Shown: positions 5,993 through 18,651 of the stretch, piece by piece
Position numbering within the stretch: the stretch's first letter is position 1
How the letters are laid out: each line of letters starts with the position of its first letter
DNA from: Thiobacillus sp.
GTDB lineage: Bacteria; Pseudomonadota; Gammaproteobacteria; Burkholderiales; Thiobacillaceae
Direction of reading: 5' to 3'
Assembly: GCA_020216925.1 (NCBI GenBank)
Contig: JAIWOL010000038.1
Coordinates: 1 to 18,651 of the forward strand
DNA: 18,651 bases
Notes under the pieces: generated by a model
The model's database searches: none
Seen by the model: the letters and a program-made list of their open reading frames with translations, nothing else
What the model was told of the DNA's origin: nothing
Made by a program: the position numbers and the translations under genes

Positions 5993-6772
5993 TCAGCCCA
6001 GAATCAGCTTCAGGCCAATGAGAACCGTCACCGTCTCGAAGGCGCGCTTGATCCACAGATTGCCCTTCATGATCGCGAAATGGCTGCCGAGGTAGCCGCC
6101 CACCACCGACCCCACCAGCAGCGCCGGCATCCAGCTCCACGCCACCGTGCCTATGGTGCCCAGCACCAGCGCGCCGGTGCCGTTCCACACCAGTCCGCAC
6201 AGCACGAGCGTGTAGGCCACCGCGCGGGTGTAGTCCAAGCCAAACCAGCGGATCAGCCAAAGGGTGAGAAACAGCCCCGTGCCGCTGGTGATCGAGCCGT
6301 TGAGCAAACCCACGCCGAAGAGCCCCGCCATGCCTATCCACAGGCCGGCGCCGCTCTGGTGGCGCGGCGCGTGGTCCATGCCGAGCCGGGGTTTGAACAT
6401 CGAATACACTCCCAGCCCCAGGGTCAGTACGCCCAACGCCAGCGTCGCCGCGCGTTCGGGCATCTGCAAAATGGTAAACGCGCCCAGCACCACGCCTGGC
6501 AGGCCCGCGCCCAGAACGACGAGCGAGAAGCGACGCTCGAGATGCGAAGTTTTCAGGTGCCGGATGGTGGCCCCCAGGCCCAGCGCCACGCTGGCGACCT
6601 TGTGCGTGGCGAGCGCCACGCCGAAGGGTAGCCCCAGAAAGATCAACATGGGAAACTGGATCAAGCCCGCCCCGCCGCCAGACAGCGCCGACAGGAAATT
6701 GGCCGCCAGAGAGGCGATCAGCAGGACGATCTGATCGAACCAGATCAGGGTGTCCAGTCCCGCGCCGGCCAT
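5993..6772 (-). CDS. TauE/SafE (TSUP) family membrane transporter
   Basis: A 259-residue polytopic membrane protein. Members of this family export sulfite, sulfoacetate or related organic and sulfur anions. It has the two internally related halves: the first with SLAANFLSALSGGGAGLIQFPMLI-like residues (about 20-43) and ALATHKVASVALGLGA, the second with GLLNGSITSGTGLFLTLWL and VGGYLGSHFAI. The ATG at 6770-6772 overlaps the stop of the DUF190 gene by one base (TGATG), so it is the last gene of a tightly coupled crcB-DUF190-TSUP operon. In a sulfur oxidiser sulfite export is an obvious possibility, but the linkage to a fluoride channel leaves the substrate open. Confidence 0.88.
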   Translation of the reverse strand: MAGAGLDTLIWFDQIVLLIASLAANFLSALSGGGAGLIQFPMLIFLGLPFGVALATHKVASVALGLGATIRHLKTSHLERRFSLVVLGAGLPGVVLGAFTILQMPERAATLALGVLTLGLGVYSMFKPRLGMDHAPRHQSGAGLWIGMAGLFGVGLLNGSITSGTGLFLTLWLIRWFGLDYTRAVAYTLVLCGLVWNGTGALVLGTIGTVAWSWMPALLVGSVVGGYLGSHFAIMKGNLWIKRAFETVTVLIGLKLILG

Positions 6773-7083
6773 CAGCCGGTGATGCCGAGTTCGGCCGGCA
6801 GCTTTGCGTAAACCAGCTTCAGGCCGGCCGCCGACACCGCCTTGAGCAATGCATCGATTTCCGCCTCCTGCGCAATGCACTGCACCACCACCGGCAGTTC
6901 GCCCGCCAGTTCGAAAAAGCCTGCGTCGTGCCGGCCATGGCGGCCAAAGCCCGCAATCGACTGAAAGGCCGACCCGCCCGGAATGCCCGTCGCCTGCGCC
7001 TGGTCGAGCAGCCATTCATAGGTGAGCCTGCCCTGATGGCGATGCGACTCGGTGACAAAGAGTTGCAGACAGACAGCATTCAT
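6772..7083 (-). CDS. DUF190 (PII-like) protein
   Basis: A 103-residue soluble protein with the DUF190 pattern: [20 protein letters not shown], then [37 protein letters not shown] and [18 protein letters not shown]190 proteins have a PII-like trimeric fold and are very often encoded next to crcB. A regulatory or ligand-sensing role is assumed but not shown. The ATG (7081-7083) and the crcB stop overlap as ATGA, and its own stop overlaps the next start, so the three proteins are probably made in step. Confidence 0.85.
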
Positions 7084-13130: not shown

Positions 13131-14084
13131 ATGAATGAACTCGGCAACAGCGGTCGGCGGAATTTTCTGCTTATCTCAAAAAGCCTGGTTGCGGCCTGGA
13201 TGCTCGGCCGCATACCTGTCAGTCGGGGTGACGACGATCGCCAGCTCGAATCCATCATGCGCATTCAGGGGCAGATTTGCCGAACCCGGCTTGCCAGCGA
13301 GGATGCCCTGCCCCGCAAGCTTGCAGGCGATCTGTTCTACCAGGGCACTCACATACTCACGCACGGAGCATTCCGCGATCTCGCCGCCGCCTATAGCCAA
13401 CCGGGGCGCCGCATGGTCGCCGCGGGTGGCGGCTGCGACGACGGGATTGGCGCCGTACGCACGGGTGTCGCCGATCTGGGCGGGATGTGCTGTCCGGTAC
13501 GCGGGTCGCGAGCCGAGGGCATGCCGTATCGTCTGGTCGCACACGATTACAAGGCGGTGATCGCGCACCCAGACAGCCGGGTGACGCAGGTGAGTCTGGC
13601 GCAGTTGCGCAAAATTGCACGTGGAGAGATTGCTCGCTGGAGCGTGCTTGGCGGCCCGGATCGCGCCATCGCGCTGGTCGCGCGCAAGCACTGCCCGGAT
13701 TATTTCGAGCCGGTACGCCATTTGCTGCTCGACAATCGTCCGACATGGTCAGCGCGCGGCATTTATGTGGATACCGACGAACAGATCACCGACACCGTGA
13801 GCCGTTACCCTGCGGCGCTGGGGCTGGTGAGCTGGGTGTTCGTCAAACCCCTGGCCGAGTCGGGTCGCCTGCGCGTGCTGGCCGTGGACGGGCGGCACCC
13901 CGGCCAGGGACGCGACTATCCCCTGCTTGGACCCTTGAGTGTGGTCTATGCGCGCTGGAACGACACAAGCATGCGCCCGTTTTTCGATTATCTGTACGGC
14001 CCCACCGGGCAGCGTATCCTGGGCCGGCTGCTGCTGCCAGTATCCGCCCGCGAGGCGGGTTACGCCCCGTCCGCTGTGGCCTGA
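13131..14084 (+). CDS. Tat-exported PstS-like substrate-binding protein with cysteine-rich ligand loops
   Basis: A 317-residue periplasmic-binding-protein-like protein. The N-terminus (SGRRNFLLISKSLVAAW, residues 7-23) has a twin-arginine motif followed by a hydrophobic stretch, so Tat export is likely. The core follows the phosphate-binding-protein plan: a ligand loop at 99-109 (GGGCDDGIGAV) and TGVADLGGMCCPV at 111-123, where ordinary PstS has Ser/Gly-rich 'GSGxGI' and 'ADIGxSSR'. YKAVIAHPDS, LAQLRKIARGEIARWSVLGG, DTDEQITDTVSRYPAALGLVSW and PFFDYLYGPTGQ follow. Cysteines are at 50, 102, 120, 121 and 188. No ABC permease or ATPase gene is near. Its 3' end overlaps that of the histidine kinase by 25 bp, so it is more likely a sensor partner than a transporter part. 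Ligand unknown. The ATG at 13131 is the first that gives a proper signal peptide; a TTG at 13056 is also in frame. Confidence 0.75.
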   Translation: MNELGNSGRRNFLLISKSLVAAWMLGRIPVSRGDDDRQLESIMRIQGQICRTRLASEDALPRKLAGDLFYQGTHILTHGAFRDLAAAYSQPGRRMVAAGGGCDDGIGAVRTGVADLGGMCCPVRGSRAEGMPYRLVAHDYKAVIAHPDSRVTQVSLAQLRKIARGEIARWSVLGGPDRAIALVARKHCPDYFEPVRHLLLDNRPTWSARGIYVDTDEQITDTVSRYPAALGLVSWVFVKPLAESGRLRVLAVDGRHPGQGRDYPLLGPLSVVYARWNDTSMRPFFDYLYGPTGQRILGRLLLPVSAREAGYAPSAVA

Positions 14085-15691
14085 GCACGCGGCAGGTGTA
14101 CGCTCACCCGGCCGTGCGTGCCGCGCGGAATCTCGATATTTCCGCCATGCGCGCGCGCGATCAGCAACGCGCTGGCCAATCCCAACCCGGTGCCATGCGT
14201 CTTGGTGGTATAAAAAGGCTCGAAAAGATGCACGCGATCGGCTTCGCTGAACCCCGGGCCATGGTCGGCCAGTTCGATCCGTATGGTGTCCGTGTCCGCT
14301 TCCAGCGTCACCGTCACCGGCGGACCGGCGTGACAGGCATTTGCCGCAAGGTTGTCCAGCATCTGTTCGAGCAGCACGCTGTCGAGACAGACCAGGACGG
14401 GCTGTGCCCGCGTGCGATAGTGCAGGCAGTCTGCGAACTGGCCGCGCCGGCTCCAGCGCACCGCCCAGTCTGCCAGCCACGCATCGGCGTCGAAATCGTG
14501 CACACGGGGACGCAGGGTGCGGCCAAATTCGAGCAGCTGCCGCACGGTTTCGCTGGCGCGCGCACTGTGATGTCGGATGAGCTGCGCATCCGCGTAGGCG
14601 GGGGTCTCCGGGGGCAGTTCGCGCGCCATCAGCTGGGCTGTGTTGCTAATGACGGTCAGCGGATTGTTGATATCGTGTGCGACGCGCGCAGCCACCCGGC
14701 CAATCGCCGACAGGCGGGCCTCGTGTTCCATGCGCGCCTCGATTTCGCGCGCCTTGCCAAGCTGCGCCGTCATGCCATTGAACGCAGCAACCAGCCGACC
14801 GATCTCGTTGTCGTCTTCAGCCGCAAGCCGCACCGCAAACTCGCCGCGGCCAACCCGCTCGGTGGCCAGCGCGAGGTCGCGCAAGGGACGCAGGCGCCGC
14901 CGTAACACCCAAGCAGTAAGCGCCAACAGTACAAAACCTGCCAACGCGAGAATGGCCAGCAGTAGCCGCCGCACCTCGGCCAACGCCGCCTGCGCGGGAT
15001 TGGCCACGCGCGCAACCAGCCAGACATTGTCAGCGAGCTTGAGTTTGGTGTCCCCGGGCGGCGGGGCAGGATAAAGCTGAAGGGACTCGATATCGCCTGT
15101 CAGACGTGCGCCGAGGCGCGCCGACAACGGTTGCGCGATTTCCACCCGGGCGATTTGCAGTGTGCCGCGCCGCACAGGCTGGCTAGCCAGCAGCCAGGGT
15201 TCGCGGCCCAGCCAGACGATGCGAACACCTGTGCCGGGGGTATCGGGCAGACTCACCCCACGGGAAGCGATCCTGCGCCCCTGCGGTGTCGTCAGAGCCA
15301 ACGCGCCCAGCCGGAAGGTATCGGCAAGACGAGCCACCGCGCTTTCCGGCAACGCGCGCTCGCCCTCAAGATAAAGATGATAATAGGTACTGTTGGCCAG
15401 CTCGCTGTCGCTGGCCACCAGGCCAGCCAGGCTGTCCAGATAACGTCGTTCCTCGCCGAGCGCGGATGTGGCCTGGGTTTGCAGACGAGCCACGCGCTGC
15501 TGATGCAGCGCAGCGAACTGTCGGTCGATGAAATACTCGATGCTGAAATAAGTCACTAGACTGACGCCCGCCACGACCCCGCCCAAAAGCCAGAGCAGGG
15601 ATGCCAGCAACGAGGCTTGCCGCTGCCGCACCGGACGCGCGGTTGCGCCGGTGTCGGCAGGACGGGTAGGAGAGGCTTCCACGGAGTGCAT
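14060..15691 (-). CDS. Membrane sensor histidine kinase with HAMP domain
   Basis: A 543-residue kinase. Helix 1 lies at about 28-50, a periplasmic sensor domain at about 51-240 and helix 2 at about 243-263. A HAMP linker (RRRLRPLRDLALATERVGRG and on to about 315) follows. The dimerisation domain carries the phospho-acceptor H339 in ARVAHDINNPLTVI, then the ATP domain: N-box MLDNLAANACHAG (about 444-456), G1 DHGPGF (476-481), F-box FEPFYTTK (490-497) and G2 GTGLGLA (500-506). The H-box and split ATP domain are of the NtrB/DctB type that pairs with NtrC-like regulators, which is exactly its divergent neighbour. The ATG at 15689-15691 touches or overlaps the start of that gene; no clear ribosome site is seen, so the true start may be a few codons inside. 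The signal is unknown; by context a sulfur compound, possibly presented by the convergent binding protein. Compare TspS of Acidithiobacillus caldus. Confidence 0.9.
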   Translation of the reverse strand: MHSVEASPTRPADTGATARPVRQRQASLLASLLWLLGGVVAGVSLVTYFSIEYFIDRQFAALHQQRVARLQTQATSALGEERRYLDSLAGLVASDSELANSTYYHLYLEGERALPESAVARLADTFRLGALALTTPQGRRIASRGVSLPDTPGTGVRIVWLGREPWLLASQPVRRGTLQIARVEIAQPLSARLGARLTGDIESLQLYPAPPPGDTKLKLADNVWLVARVANPAQAALAEVRRLLLAILALAGFVLLALTAWVLRRRLRPLRDLALATERVGRGEFAVRLAAEDDNEIGRLVAAFNGMTAQLGKAREIEARMEHEARLSAIGRVAARVAHDINNPLTVISNTAQLMARELPPETPAYADAQLIRHHSARASETVRQLLEFGRTLRPRVHDFDADAWLADWAVRWSRRGQFADCLHYRTRAQPVLVCLDSVLLEQMLDNLAANACHAGPPVTVTLEADTDTIRIELADHGPGFSEADRVHLFEPFYTTKTHGTGLGLASALLIARAHGGNIEIPRGTHGRVSVHLPRAQATADGA

Positions 15692-15692
15692 G

Positions 15693-17054
15693 ATGCAAAG
15701 CTATCAATCCCGCGCAGATAAAGCCAGTCCGGAATCCGCACCGGCGGGGCGGGTGCTCATCGTCGAGGACGAGCCCGATGTCGCGCACCTGCTTGATCGC
15801 GTCATCCGCAGTTGTGGTGATTACGCCATACAGCGCTGCACCGATCCGCAGCAATTCGCCGCCTGCCTCCAAACTTTCCGCCCCGACCGCGTGTTTACCG
15901 ACCTTGCCATGCCTGGTATTGACGGCTTCGAGATCATTCGCCGCGTGCGCGCATACGACGAAAACCTGCCGGTGGTGGTTGTCAGCGCCCATGCCAGTCT
16001 GGAAAATGCCATCCAGGCGATCAAGATCGGCGCCTTCGATTTTCTCGCCAAGCCCTTCAGCACCGAAACTGTGGAAATCGTGCTTGAAAAGATCACGCGC
16101 GAGCTGGCGCTGCGTGCTCGCGCGCTTGAAGCCTGCCGGCTGGCGGCGAGCCGTGACCCGGGTCTGGCCGCGCTCATGGGCGCAAGCGCGGCCATGAGCG
16201 AGGTGCGCGAGTGGATCGCGCGCGTACGCCCCACCCGCGCCAACGTGCTGATCGAAGGCGAAACCGGCACTGGCAAGGAACTCGTCGCGCGCGCGCTGCG
16301 TCAGGGCGACAGCCCCTTCGTCGCGATCAATCTCGCCGCGCTGCCCGGTGATCTGATCGAATCGGAACTCTTCGGCCATCGCCGGGGCGCGTTTTCCGGC
16401 GCGCATACCGACCACAAGGGTCTCATCGAATCGGCGCACGGCGGCATCCTGTTCCTCGACGAAGTCAACAGCGCGCCGCCGCAGCTCCAGGCCAAACTCC
16501 TGCGGGTGCTGGAAGACAAGCGCGTGCGTCCGGTCGGCGGCAGCGCCGAGATCGCAGTCGACGTGCGTTTCATCGCGGCCACCAACCAGCCGCTGGAGCC
16601 ACTGGTTGCTGCAGGGCAATTCCGACGCGATCTTTATCACCGTCTCAAGGTACTTGGCGTAACGCTTCCGCCGCTGCGCGCGCGGCGTGAGGACATTCCG
16701 CTGTACGTGCGTGAGTTCGTGCCGCGTTACGCGCGCGCCCATGGCCGCCGCGTGCGCGAAGCCAGCGAAACGCTGATGCGCGAACTCGTCGCGCGCGACT
16801 GGCCAGGTAACGTGCGCGAACTGGAAAACTGGATCGAGCAGGCCGTGATCCTGAGCGCGGACGACGCACTCGAACTGGATCTGCCCGCGGGCGCGCCCCG
16901 GCCGCTTACAGATGCCGGCGCCGCCAACACCCTGGCCGCTGCCGAGCGACGCCATATCCTGCATATCCTCGCCGAATGCGGAGGCAACAAATCGCGCGCC
17001 GCCCGCGTGCTCGGCATCGACTACAAAACCCTGCTGCGCAAACTCCCCGCCTGA
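15693..17054 (+). CDS. Sigma-54-dependent NtrC-family response regulator
   Basis: A 453-residue three-domain activator. The receiver domain has E25/D26, phospho-acceptor D70 in VFTDLAMPG, S98 and K120. The AAA+ domain has Walker A GETGTGKE (189-196), the sigma-54 contact loop GAFSGA (232-237; the usual form is GAFTGA), Walker B ILFLDE (252-257), arginine region RRDLYHR (311-317) and WPGNVRELENW (370-380). The Fis-type HTH is AERRHILHILAECGGNKSRA through YKTLLRKL (about 417-451). GGAG (15683-15686) sits 6 bases before the ATG at 15693; the ATG at 15690 is 3 bases away and less likely. The gene ends before a dyad, a terminator and a sigma-54 promoter that drives soxXA, its likely target. Compare TspR, reported to control sox genes in Acidithiobacillus caldus. 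Confidence 0.93.
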   Translation: MQSYQSRADKASPESAPAGRVLIVEDEPDVAHLLDRVIRSCGDYAIQRCTDPQQFAACLQTFRPDRVFTDLAMPGIDGFEIIRRVRAYDENLPVVVVSAHASLENAIQAIKIGAFDFLAKPFSTETVEIVLEKITRELALRARALEACRLAASRDPGLAALMGASAAMSEVREWIARVRPTRANVLIEGETGTGKELVARALRQGDSPFVAINLAALPGDLIESELFGHRRGAFSGAHTDHKGLIESAHGGILFLDEVNSAPPQLQAKLLRVLEDKRVRPVGGSAEIAVDVRFIAATNQPLEPLVAAGQFRRDLYHRLKVLGVTLPPLRARREDIPLYVREFVPRYARAHGRRVREASETLMRELVARDWPGNVRELENWIEQAVILSADDALELDLPAGAPRPLTDAGAANTLAAAERRHILHILAECGGNKSRAARVLGIDYKTLLRKLPA

Positions 17055-17059
17055 ACCCC

Positions 17060-17084
17060 GGTCTATGGCAAAACGCCATAGACC
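17060..17084. promoter_or_regulatory. Perfect 10-bp inverted repeat, candidate enhancer (UAS) for the sigma-54 regulator
   Basis: GGTCTATGGC (17060-17069) and GCCATAGACC (17075-17084) are exact reverse complements around a 5-base AAAAC spacer. The element begins 5 bases after the regulator's stop codon. A separate, proper terminator lies 30 bases further on and no T run follows the repeat, so it is probably not a terminator. Its centre is about 104 bases before the -24 element of the soxX promoter, a normal distance for an NtrC-type binding site. Confidence 0.6.
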
Positions 17085-17114
17085 GCTCCGTGCATACTTG
17101 CATTTCGCCAGACC

Positions 17115-17138
17115 CCCGCTTTGGGCGGGTTTGTTTTT
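17115..17138 (+). terminator. Rho-independent terminator after the response regulator
   Basis: CCCGC (17115-17119) and GCGGG (17125-17129) form a stem around TTTGG, followed directly by TTTGTTTTT (17130-17138) and more T-rich sequence. It should stop regulator transcripts before soxX, so soxX would depend on its own promoter. Confidence 0.7.
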
Positions 17139-17174
17139 CTTCAATTTTTCATTGAGTTACAAAAGGCTTCAGGC

Positions 17175-17189
17175 TGGCACGTCTGATGC
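17175..17189 (+). promoter_or_regulatory. Sigma-54 (-24/-12) promoter of soxXA
   Basis: TGGCACG-TCTG-ATGC compares with the consensus TGGCACG-N4-TTGC. The invariant GG (17176-17177) and GC (17188-17189) are exactly 10 bases apart, and only one base of the core differs. Transcription would start near 17200, about 41 bases before the soxX ATG. It lies between a terminator and soxX, next to a sigma-54 activator gene. Confidence 0.75.
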
Positions 17190-17227
17190 GTATCCCCGTT
17201 TTGCCCGCTGGGCAATTGAAATCGATC

Positions 17228-17234
17228 GAGGAGA
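17228..17234 (+). promoter_or_regulatory. Strong ribosome binding site fixing the soxX start
   Basis: GAGGAGA ends 7 bases before the ATG at 17242. This supports the lipoprotein N-terminus (MRKLLSGG) as the true start rather than the ATG at 17264, which begins the downstream frame out of register. Confidence 0.7.
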
Positions 17235-17241
17235 CAACTGA

Positions 17242-17836
17242 ATGAGGAAACTGCTGTCAGGCGGTGCTGCCATCCTGCTGTTGCAGGCTTGCGCCACCCA
17301 ACCCGAGCCCCCCAAGGCTGCCGCCCTGCAACCCGCGCCGACCGTGGCTGAAGTCAAACCCAAACCCTGGCCTGCCGGCCGATGCGCTATACGATCCGAA
17401 TGCAAAGAACGGAACCATTTTTTACGTACCGACGACGGATACCGCTACCCTGAAGCAGGCCGATCATCCGCGCGACTTGTCAAAGTGGCTCACGCGCAGC
17501 CATCTGGACACGCGCGGCGTGCAGCCGCCGGTCAAGAAAAAGCTCGAAGGTCCGCTCAACGGCAACCCCGAAGAGGGCAAGAAAATCGCAATGAACACCG
17601 GTGCCGGCAACTGCTGGGCCTGCCATGCCTTACCCGGCGACGCCCAGCCCGGCAACCAGGGGCCATCGCTGATCGATTTCGCCAAGCGTGGCCTGAGCGA
17701 CGAGGAGGTGTACCAGACGATCTACGACCGCCGTTCGGTAAACCCCATGACCGCAATGCCGCCCTTCGGCGCGCTAGGCACCCTCACCGACCAGCAGGTA
17801 CGCGACATCGCCGCCTATCTGCAATCCCTGAAATAA
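17242..17836 (+). CDS. soxX: Sulfur-oxidising c-type cytochrome SoxX, with an apparent frameshift
   Basis: SoxX is the small haem subunit of SoxXA, which links thiosulfate oxidatively to the SoxYZ carrier in the periplasm. Two frames together give one normal protein of about 197 residues. The first frame (17242 to about 17367) encodes MRKLLSGGAAILLLQACATQ and then a Pro/Ala-rich linker. The second (about 17369 to the TAA at 17834-17836) encodes GLPADALYDPNAKNGTIFYV and the cytochrome domain with CWACH (124-128), GDAQPGNQGPSL and the methionine-ligand region NPMTAMPPFG (168-176), ending DIAAYLQSLK. Removing one C from the CCC at 17365-17367 joins them exactly. The N-terminus has a lipobox (L14-Q-A-C17), suggesting a membrane-anchored lipoprotein. 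As written the gene is broken; the intact domains on both sides and intact soxA suggest a base error or a very recent mutation. soxA starts 13 bases after the stop. Confidence 0.85.
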
Positions 17837-17849
17837 GCCGGAGTCGATC

Positions 17850-18651
17850 ATGAAAAAACTCAATCCGCGCCCGGGTATCCTGGCAGTCGCAGTCCTCGCC
17901 TATGCCGCCAGCGCGCTGGCAGCCGATCCCTACCGCGAATACGTATGGGATGTCACCAACAATCCACCCAGTGTCGAGGGCGACAAGAACCACACCGACA
18001 CTTATCAATACTGGAAAGACCGTTCAAAACTGCCCGCCATGAGCGGGGTCGACGAGTGGAAACTCAACTGGAAATTTCGTGATCGTCCCGGCAACGACCA
18101 GTTGCATGGCGGCGATCTGGCGCAGGAGCGAGGCGAGCTCGTCTACAGGAAACTCAACACCGGCAATGCCTTCGCCGCGTGCATGGGCGCACCTGACGGC
18201 AATCTCAAGGGGCTGCGCCTGAAATATCCGCGCTATGACGAAGACATGAAAAAAATCGTCGGCATGGAAGCCCGTATCGAATACTGCGCAAGCAAGCTTG
18301 GCAGCAAGCTGGTGAACGGCAGCTACGACAACAGTGCGGTGTCGATTTACATCGCTGCGTTCAGCAATGGCATGCCCATGGCGATCGATGTGAGCCAAGG
18401 GCCGCTCAAGGAATCGTTCGAGCGCGGTCGCAAGGCATTCAACCTCAAGGCGGGGCGGATGAACCTGGCGTGCGCAAGCTGCCACGTGCAGATGGTCGGC
18501 CGAAATCTGCGCGGGCAGACGCCGACTACCCACTTTGGCGACCTCACCCACTGGCCGACGTGGCGCGGCAAGGATGAATTGCAGTCGCTGCACGTGCGTT
18601 TTACCGAATGCGACAAGAACTCCGGGGTGCAGCCGTTGCAAATCGGCAGCC
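17850..18651 (+). CDS. soxA: Sulfur-oxidising c-type cytochrome SoxA, monohaem form (runs off the window)
   Basis: The first 267 codons of SoxA, cut by the right edge. A Sec signal peptide (residues 1-25, ending SALAA) precedes DPYREYVWDVTNNPPSVEGD. The C-terminal haem site ACASCHVQ (CxxCH at 208-212) is present, followed by PTTHFGDLTHWPTWR and the active-site cysteine C254 in VRFTECDKN. At the place of the N-terminal haem of di-haem SoxA there is no CxxCH; instead C111 (AACMG) and C146 (EYCAS) probably form the disulfide known from monohaem SoxA. SoxA catalyses attachment of thiosulfate to SoxY together with SoxX. The ATG at 17850 has GGAG 7 bases upstream. It shares the sigma-54 promoter with soxX; further sox genes probably follow outside the window. 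Confidence 0.93.
   Translation, partial: MKKLNPRPGILAVAVLAYAASALAADPYREYVWDVTNNPPSVEGDKNHTDTYQYWKDRSKLPAMSGVDEWKLNWKFRDRPGNDQLHGGDLAQERGELVYRKLNTGNAFAACMGAPDGNLKGLRLKYPRYDEDMKKIVGMEARIEYCASKLGSKLVNGSYDNSAVSIYIAAFSNGMPMAIDVSQGPLKESFERGRKAFNLKAGRMNLACASCHVQMVGRNLRGQTPTTHFGDLTHWPTWRGKDELQSLHVRFTECDKNSGVQPLQIGS

Follow-up and report, generated by a model that had tools for sequence, protein, structure and literature searches.

A Putative Three-Component Sigma-54 Signalling Module with a Cysteine-Bearing, PstS-Like Protein Upstream of soxXA in Thiobacillus

Introduction

What controls soxXA in this Thiobacillus, and to which signal does the control respond? Sensing of extracellular thiosulfate by sulfur-oxidising bacteria is poorly understood. 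The sox regulators that we met in the literature, some of it available in excerpt, are sulfane-sulfur repressors, a CsoR-type regulator in Thermus, and the TspS-TspR system. The ArsR-type proteins SoxR and sHdrR of Alphaproteobacteria also control thiosulfate oxidation genes and are described, in the available parts of PMC10451225 and PMC12423496, as sulfane-sulfur-responsive repressors, whereas for the locus studied here we predict activation from a periplasmic input. No ArsR family match was found by Pfam among the part of the window ORFs that was scanned.

Sigma-54 control of sox by TspSR, and sigma-54 genes beside sox, are already known. Excerpts of two further articles mention sigma-54 genes accompanied by kinase genes, in one case at soxYZ (PMC11237559) and in the other downstream of soxY in Tv. 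sulfidiphilus (PMC6382920). The Thioalkalivibrio thiocyanate dehydrogenase cluster, found in similar bacteria, likewise has sigma-54 two-component control, but as far as the accessible text goes its kinase carries a GAF domain and its target is a different one (PMC5744179). In the literature searched, which included partial texts, we found no description of a PstS-like cysteine protein as a third component together with sox and sigma-54, nor of the code of tandem sites or the distinctness from TspR, both of which are reported below.

Results

Layout of the Locus

The stretch of DNA that was analysed (the window) is 18,651 nucleotides long and makes up one whole contig (G000:C94) of an assembly that is 85% complete. 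The closest named relative among the matches listed is Thiobacillus sp. MAG W21, whose activator is 83% identical. The right end of the window carries, in order, a PstS-like gene, a sensor kinase gene, an NtrC-type activator gene, a 187-bp control region, soxX, and soxA:

13131–14084, forward strand: PstS-like substrate-binding protein (PBP), PF12849, with a twin-arginine motif (Pfam and NCBIfam matches, alignment of 120 homologues, AF2 model, co-occurrence with the activator)
14060–15691, reverse strand: sensor histidine kinase with HAMP, HisKA and HATPase_c domains (Pfam; an orthologue accompanies the activator gene in 21 of 22 loci)
15689–15692: CATG in which the divergent kinase and activator start codons overlap, under first-ATG annotation (from the sequence)
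15690–17054, forward strand: NtrC-type sigma-54 activator and response regulator, REC-AAA-HTH_8 with a GAFSGA loop (Pfam, tree)
17059–17085, core 17064–17080: perfect dyad TATGGC-AAAAC-GCCATA, candidate activator site 1 (sequence, comparison with relatives)
17096–17112: candidate for a second activator site (site 2), weak, with 8 of 12 consensus positions matched and a distance of 32 bp from site 1
17115–17139, forward strand: intrinsic-terminator-like hairpin (17115–17129) followed by a T run, where the activator transcript presumably ends
17175–17190, forward strand: sigma-54 -24/-12 promoter TGGCACGTCTGATGCG
17242–17853, forward strand: soxX start region with ribosome site, ATG and lipoprotein-like N-terminus, in a frame without the haem motif
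17264–17836, forward strand: ORF with the SoxX cytochrome domain, frame-shifted relative to ATG 17242 (TIGR04485, 80.9 bits against a cut-off of 61)
17850–18651, forward strand: soxA, cut by the contig end (TIGR04484)

A preliminary description had read the right end as an activator gene followed by a dyad, terminator, promoter, ribosome site and soxX start, and all of these are there, within 187 bp. Its claim that soxXA of a betaproteobacterium is preceded here by a sigma-54 activator gene, together with an upstream site and a promoter belonging to that activator, is supported. It had called the circuit self-contained, a label that leaves out the adjoining kinase and PstS-like genes; the tandem arrangement of sites and the soxX frameshift, both described below, had likewise escaped it. 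The activator gene itself is real, but the start that had been given, 15693, falls on the latter of a pair of neighbouring ATGs, and the ORF runs from 15690 to 17054. The overlapping divergent starts of kinase and activator are arranged in the same way in a close relative (locus L103), and RpoN is encoded in the window's own genome.

Proposed Signalling Module

We put the probability at about 0.7 that these genes form a three-component sigma-54 signalling system that induces soxXA, built like AioX-AioS-AioR around an unrelated sensor protein. Genes, sites, conservation and co-inheritance were read from sequence; from these we infer protein export and membrane topology, the phosphorelay pairing, the contact between PBP and kinase, the ligand and the direction of regulation. 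PBP, exported by Tat, would bind a reduced sulfur species in the periplasm, and the loaded protein would engage the periplasmic domain of the neighbouring membrane kinase. The kinase would phosphorylate the NtrC-type activator, which would bind the inverted repeat at 17064–17080 as an enhancer, and perhaps also the weak site 32 bp nearer the promoter. From there it would drive RpoN polymerase at 17175–17190, and the short soxXA operon would be transcribed. The order of signalling from PBP through kinase to activator is proposed by analogy with AioXSR. We favour thiosulfate or another reduced sulfur species as the ligand, on account of the target genes and the cysteines of PBP. Since a candidate sensor protein, its pocket residues, kinase, activator and DNA sites can all be named, each step is testable.

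In AioX-AioS-AioR, as in ArxXSR and ArrXSR, a periplasmic-binding protein, a kinase and an activator of RpoN promoters lie beside oxidase genes, and the binding protein has a pocket cysteine (PMC5908839, in excerpt). According to the same excerpt, all three aio genes are needed for arsenite-oxidase expression, and AioX binds its ligand in vitro (PMC5908839). At the level of genes, the same content is present here: a PBP, a kinase and a sigma-54 activator beside oxidase genes. The two systems differ in three respects. AioX is PhnD-like, whereas PBP matches PBP_like_2 and PstS and not the AioX/PhnD subfamily; PBP has four pocket-loop cysteines against one in the AioX pocket list; and the target here is soxXA, while that of AioXSR is a molybdoenzyme.

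The PstS-Like Protein and Its Ligand

PF12849 is the sole Pfam match of PBP at E ≤ 0.001, and the NCBIfam PstS model matches below its cut-off. Nine PDB profile matches are phosphate-type or unspecified ABC substrate-binding proteins, or in one case an uncharacterised protein. The AF2 model (pLDDT 86) has the fold of PstS, and its top structural matches are PstS proteins. The likeness to PstS ends at the sequence, with 23% identity over the residues compared, and at the pocket. Opposite Cys102, Cys120-Cys121 and Cys188 of PBP, PstS has a Ser, a Ser-Arg pair and the Gly before its SGT loop, respectively, in loops that we take to be those holding the phosphate. In an alignment of 120 homologues the conserved cysteines are Cys50, Cys102, Cys120, Cys121 and Cys188, and the four in the ligand-pocket loops (102, 120, 121 and 188) are virtually invariant. 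No transporter, and in particular no ABC permease, was noticed beside the gene in an unsystematic look at its flanks. The twin-arginine motif suggests export to the periplasm via Tat, and PBP is probably the periplasmic sensor subunit of the switch.

Our idea of what it senses is tentative and stands at rather less than even odds. PBP may be a thiol-based sensor of reduced sulfur, a PstS fold whose oxyanion-binding residues have been exchanged for Cys102, Cys120, Cys121 and Cys188. It would capture thiosulfate, tetrathionate or polysulfide on cysteine, perhaps covalently as on SoxY, and report to the kinase. If this is true, PBP would have evolved independently to do for sulfur what AioX does for arsenite, and it would account for the way in which many sulfur oxidisers perceive thiosulfate outside the cell.

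The same cysteines would suit soft ligands, and it is conceivable, though on the unlikely side, that what they bind, and the module senses, is an arsenic species (arsenite or thioarsenate) or a soft metal, copper for example, instead of thiosulfate or sulfane sulfur. The AioX pocket includes Cys106, according to the part of PMC5908839 at hand, and the accessible sections of PMC6620896 report that sox genes go up under arsenite in Tv. thiocyanoxidans. In Tv. jannaschii, however, the same sections describe sox expression as unchanged or slightly lowered by arsenite (PMC6620896). One relative without a soxX or soxA match in the stretch fetched, L136, has a DUF3299 gene and then a ZrgA-type metal protein gene downstream of a beta-propeller gene that carries the sites discussed below, an arrangement that would fit a metal signal. 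What speaks against arsenic or a metal is the company that the module keeps: 19 of the 22 loci examined have linked soxX and/or soxA genes.

Relatives and Gene Linkage

Those 22 loci were chosen by activator and consist of the window plus loci from all 21 other genomes with an activator match. In the family of Thiobacillus (f1), 10 of 117 genomes have the activator (E 1e-110). The order sample gave 5 of 399 (1e-125) and the class sample 4 of 369 (1e-110), while the families of two further genomes gave 2 of 22 (G294; 1e-125) and 8 of 47 (G725; 1e-115). The family, order and class counts include the window's genome, and some genomes recur across searches. Besides the Thiobacillus family, activators of the clade occur in Thioalkalivibrio, Sulfurivermis and Sulfuritalea, and the PstS-like protein also occurs in Thioalkalivibrio and Sulfuritalea, in each case among the matches listed.

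The kinase is linked to the activator in 21 of the 22 loci, the exception (L110) being a contig of 6.6 kb. PBP is linked in 20. The three loci without linked soxX or soxA are L113, an 8.6-kb contig, L136 and L138. Gene order varies while the set is kept: PBP adjoins the response regulator gene on one strand in L108, L109, L111 and L115, and adjoins the kinase gene in L116, L138, L139 and L140. A rough count of activator/PBP linkage, which may include pairs on different contigs, came to 29 among the 120 + 120 matches listed.

The kinase is presumed to be membrane-bound with a periplasmic domain. Structure modelling gave low confidence for it (pTM 0.42), and most of its listed PDB matches are to kinase cores. 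Among 20 kinase orthologues, dCache_1 was matched in one and CHASE4 in two, all weakly. The kinase may thus own a sensor domain, as would be expected if kinase and activator were the entire switch and PBP an independent enzyme or scavenging protein travelling along with them. One genome (G037, locus L106) agrees with such a pair, having activator and kinase with no PBP found at E 1e-30 and no tblastn match in L106 or L155. Likewise, PBP lies on another contig (C39) in G031, the genome of L110, and a few kb away in G057 and G035. Against this, PBP occurs in 9 of the 117 f1 genomes (E 1e-30), every one of which belongs to the 10 with the activator, and it adjoins kinase or activator in several different arrangements. 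We therefore regard a two-component switch with an unrelated passenger as improbable.

The Activator and Its Relation to TspR

Pfam finds a receiver domain (REC, PF00072), Sigma54_activat (PF00158), an AAA lid (PF25601) and HTH_8 (PF02954) in the activator, so that the receiver, AAA+ sigma-54 interaction and Fis-type HTH domains of two-component bEBPs are all present. It falls below the curated cut-off of each of the 25 NCBIfam models listed. The sigma-54 contact loop reads GAFSGA, in place of the usual GAFTGA, in the window, L103 and L114; the remaining 8 of the 11 loci listed (15 were scanned) have either GAFTGA or GAYTGA. This replacement could matter for sigma-54 contact.

TspS-TspR was reportedly the subject of a study by Li et al. 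in 2017. In the excerpt available to us, the system belongs to the sox-II cluster of A. caldus and is a sigma-54 two-component system directly upstream of soxX, with an inverted-repeat site, TGTCCCAAATGGGACA, and a -24/-12 promoter (PMC6335251). The window has the same logic and target, and the preliminary description had taken its activator for a probable relative of TspR. The comparison does not support that kinship. Exact copies of TGTCCCAAATGGGACA occur in 2 of 369 class genomes, both of family f77, and in none of the contigs of the window's own genome. The two genomes appear, from site and gene order, to be Acidithiobacillus relatives. Their loci (L144 and L145) read HK-RR-soxX-soxY-soxA-soxB on one strand, whereas kinase and activator are divergent in the window; the TspR-type clusters include soxY and soxB, and no PBP match at E 1e-3 was found in either 19-kb TspSR stretch. 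Similarity between the kinases is limited to residues 268–527, the catalytic part.

The TspR-type regulators are 38–39% identical to the window activator. Both score nearer to all 22 background activators (22 of 80 listed loci, mostly distant activators, the same set as in the tree) than to the window activator, and of the 7 further activators that the window's own genome encodes, 4 are also nearer to them. The tree unites the 22 activators of our loci in a clade (100/100) and places TspR with an activator from Aquificota (100/99). A tree of the regulator had been proposed as a check on whether sox-linked members group together. They do, and they do so apart from TspR, which leans against the TspR link. 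Forcing all 24 together costs 27.7 units of lnL and is not rejected at 0.05 (p-AU 0.069). With that caveat, we rejected orthology to TspR on identity, score, site, gene order and tree; the activator is probably neither an orthologue nor a TspS-TspR relative, although the tree test is not decisive. That the locus is a betaproteobacterial TspS-TspR, the Acidithiobacillus system with drifted sequence, has in our view very little likelihood. Should the tree be correct, sox came under sigma-54 control on at least two separate occasions.

The Control Region

The dyad starts 4 bp past the activator stop. Its arms, CGGTCTATGGC (17059–17069) and GCCATAGACCG (17075–17085), are complementary at 11 of 11 positions across a 5-nt gap, and it lies about 110 bp upstream of the -24/-12 element. 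The exact TATGGC site has one copy in the window's genome assembly, with one more place at 1 mismatch, which points to a switch dedicated to this locus. Only the promoter, TGGCACGTCTGATGCG, matches TGGCACG-N5-TGC perfectly in the window; with up to 2 mismatches the pattern is no commoner than chance (41 against 45.65 expected). The terminator-like hairpin alone is not significant (1 found against a shuffle mean of 1.7). Site 2 has an unremarkable score, equalled or bettered at 574 of 18,634 window positions, and was placed by its spacing, which agrees with that in relatives, so it is not independent evidence.

Much more can be read from the relatives, in which the 17-bp inverted repeat keeps its 6-bp half-sites and 5-bp gap. 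Of the 19 loci with linked sox genes, 17 have a promoter (at least 11 bits) and a site (at least 10 of 12 positions) together ahead of their first sox gene. The best site scores 11–12 of 12 in 16 of these and 10 in the other, L115. In L108 and L109 a 14.9-bit promoter goes with a pair of 9/12 sites 32 bp apart. Ahead of soxX itself, checked in 13 loci, a promoter of at least 11.9 bits is present in all 10 whose sox genes begin with soxX. The remaining loci, L108, L111 and L115, have no such promoter before soxX; theirs lies before soxA or soxY.

We scanned 20 of the 22 loci (275,460 bp; L109 and L113 left out) for exact matches to T[AG][GT]G[GT]C-N5-G[AC]C[AC][CT]A. There are 18, a count that is descriptive because the motif was written from the loci in which it is counted; the reversed-sequence control gave 0. 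Sox promoters account for 15 of them and the promoter of the L136 beta-propeller gene for one, with the site centre 87–141 bp upstream. The remaining two are at position 14144 of L140, preceding a beta-propeller gene, and at 3454 of L104, which is unexplained. Away from sox and beta-propeller genes, the 22 loci contain 10 further combinations of promoter and site, including one in the window. We take these as the noise level: nine have a 10/12 site and one an 11/12 site, so 10/12 sites alone mean little.

Tandem sites (second site at least 10) spaced 31–34 bp apart, about three helical turns, are found in 14 of 18 relatives, which comprise 16 sox loci, L136 and L138. By that scan L105, L110, L115 and L140 have no second site. 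In L136, L138 and L140 a site pair and a -24/-12 element precede a gene for a YncE/cytochrome-d1-like beta-propeller protein; L140 has sites at both its sox and its propeller targets, the propeller promoter and pair having been read by eye. Since the sites in L136 and L138 would control a beta-propeller gene and no soxX or soxA match was found in the stretches fetched for them, the signal may not be thiosulfate.

The end of the half-site in the first site also goes with the recognition helix of the activator, as tabulated for 18 of the 22 loci. GTC occurs with IGYKT in 5 of 5 loci, all of one clade, and GGC with IDYKT in 12 of 13, L141 having GGA. This covariation is one evolutionary change. 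Taken with the conserved sites, it points to the dyad as very probably the binding site of the activator.

We rejected the dyad as a terminator only, on site conservation, spacing and the tandem pattern in relatives. A mere RNA hairpin, or a piece of the activator terminator, is the least likely reading of all: the dyad does lie just past the stop codon, the stretch 17055–17140 folds at -38.5 kcal/mol (a value without shuffle control), and the arms outside the core differ between the window and L103 yet remain complementary, but no T run follows the dyad, and in relatives its half-sites and gap are kept at a narrow distance from the promoter, mostly in tandem, also before another gene, and with a half-site end (GTC or GGC) that tracks the recognition helix, if by one evolutionary change.

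The soxX Frame and the Extent of the Operon

The strong ribosome site that had been assigned to soxX is there, GAGGAGA ahead of ATG 17242, but the frame that opens at this ATG loses the SoxX cytochrome domain. The haem motif sits in the ORF at 17264–17836, and because this is a different frame, soxX is frameshifted in the window assembly. In the close relative L103, soxX is intact and in a single frame throughout. The frameshift is either an assembly error or the mark of a broken copy.

Contig C151 opens with 92 bases identical to the window's end and carries the remainder of soxA. After soxA come a hairpin and T run, seen by eye, and then MoeA and MoaA genes, so the operon consists of soxXA alone.

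An activator gene on contig C73, beside soxB, was considered as a second sox regulator and rejected. It is 30% identical to the window activator, and its best NCBIfam match is a PEP-CTERM response regulator model, below cut-off. On that contig soxY, a second soxA and soxB are grouped, and inspection by eye shows a frame resembling soxZ among them.

A beta-propeller gene as a further predicted target

In three activator-bearing loci of relatives, a YncE/cytochrome-d1-like beta-propeller gene is preceded by a sigma-54 promoter and by the activator sites known from the sox promoters:

L136, 7090-8325: beta-propeller gene
L138, 12748-13980: beta-propeller gene
L140, 12761-13993: beta-propeller gene

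Judged by sequence, this gene is a second, unexplained predicted target of the activator sites. In L136 it is followed by DUF3299 and ZrgA-type genes.

The activator and its control region

The start codons of the kinase and activator genes overlap, taking the first ATG of each, so each promoter would fall within the other gene. The close relative L103 has the same layout.

15689-15692, opposite strands: CATG, overlapping start codons

The activator search reported one TAA within the match in another genome (L017, G111:C27:243505-244848), which may simply be the normal stop. In the dyad ahead of soxX (17059-17085), arm bases beyond the site core differ between the window and L103 yet still pair, hinting that an RNA hairpin is also conserved.

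The soxX frame and a sulfite exporter gene

17242-17310: SoxX N-terminus, lipoprotein-like signal
5993-7015: TauE/SafE-type sulfite exporter gene

In the window, a break in the soxX frame (17242-17836) separates the haem domain from the N-terminal portion; in L103 soxX is uninterrupted, in one frame. The break is either an assembly error or a real loss. Both N-termini carry the motif LQAC and resemble a lipoprotein signal. The SoxX start as read in L104, another relative's locus, differs from this lipoprotein-like start. The exporter gene, also in the window, is possibly tied to sulfur metabolism.
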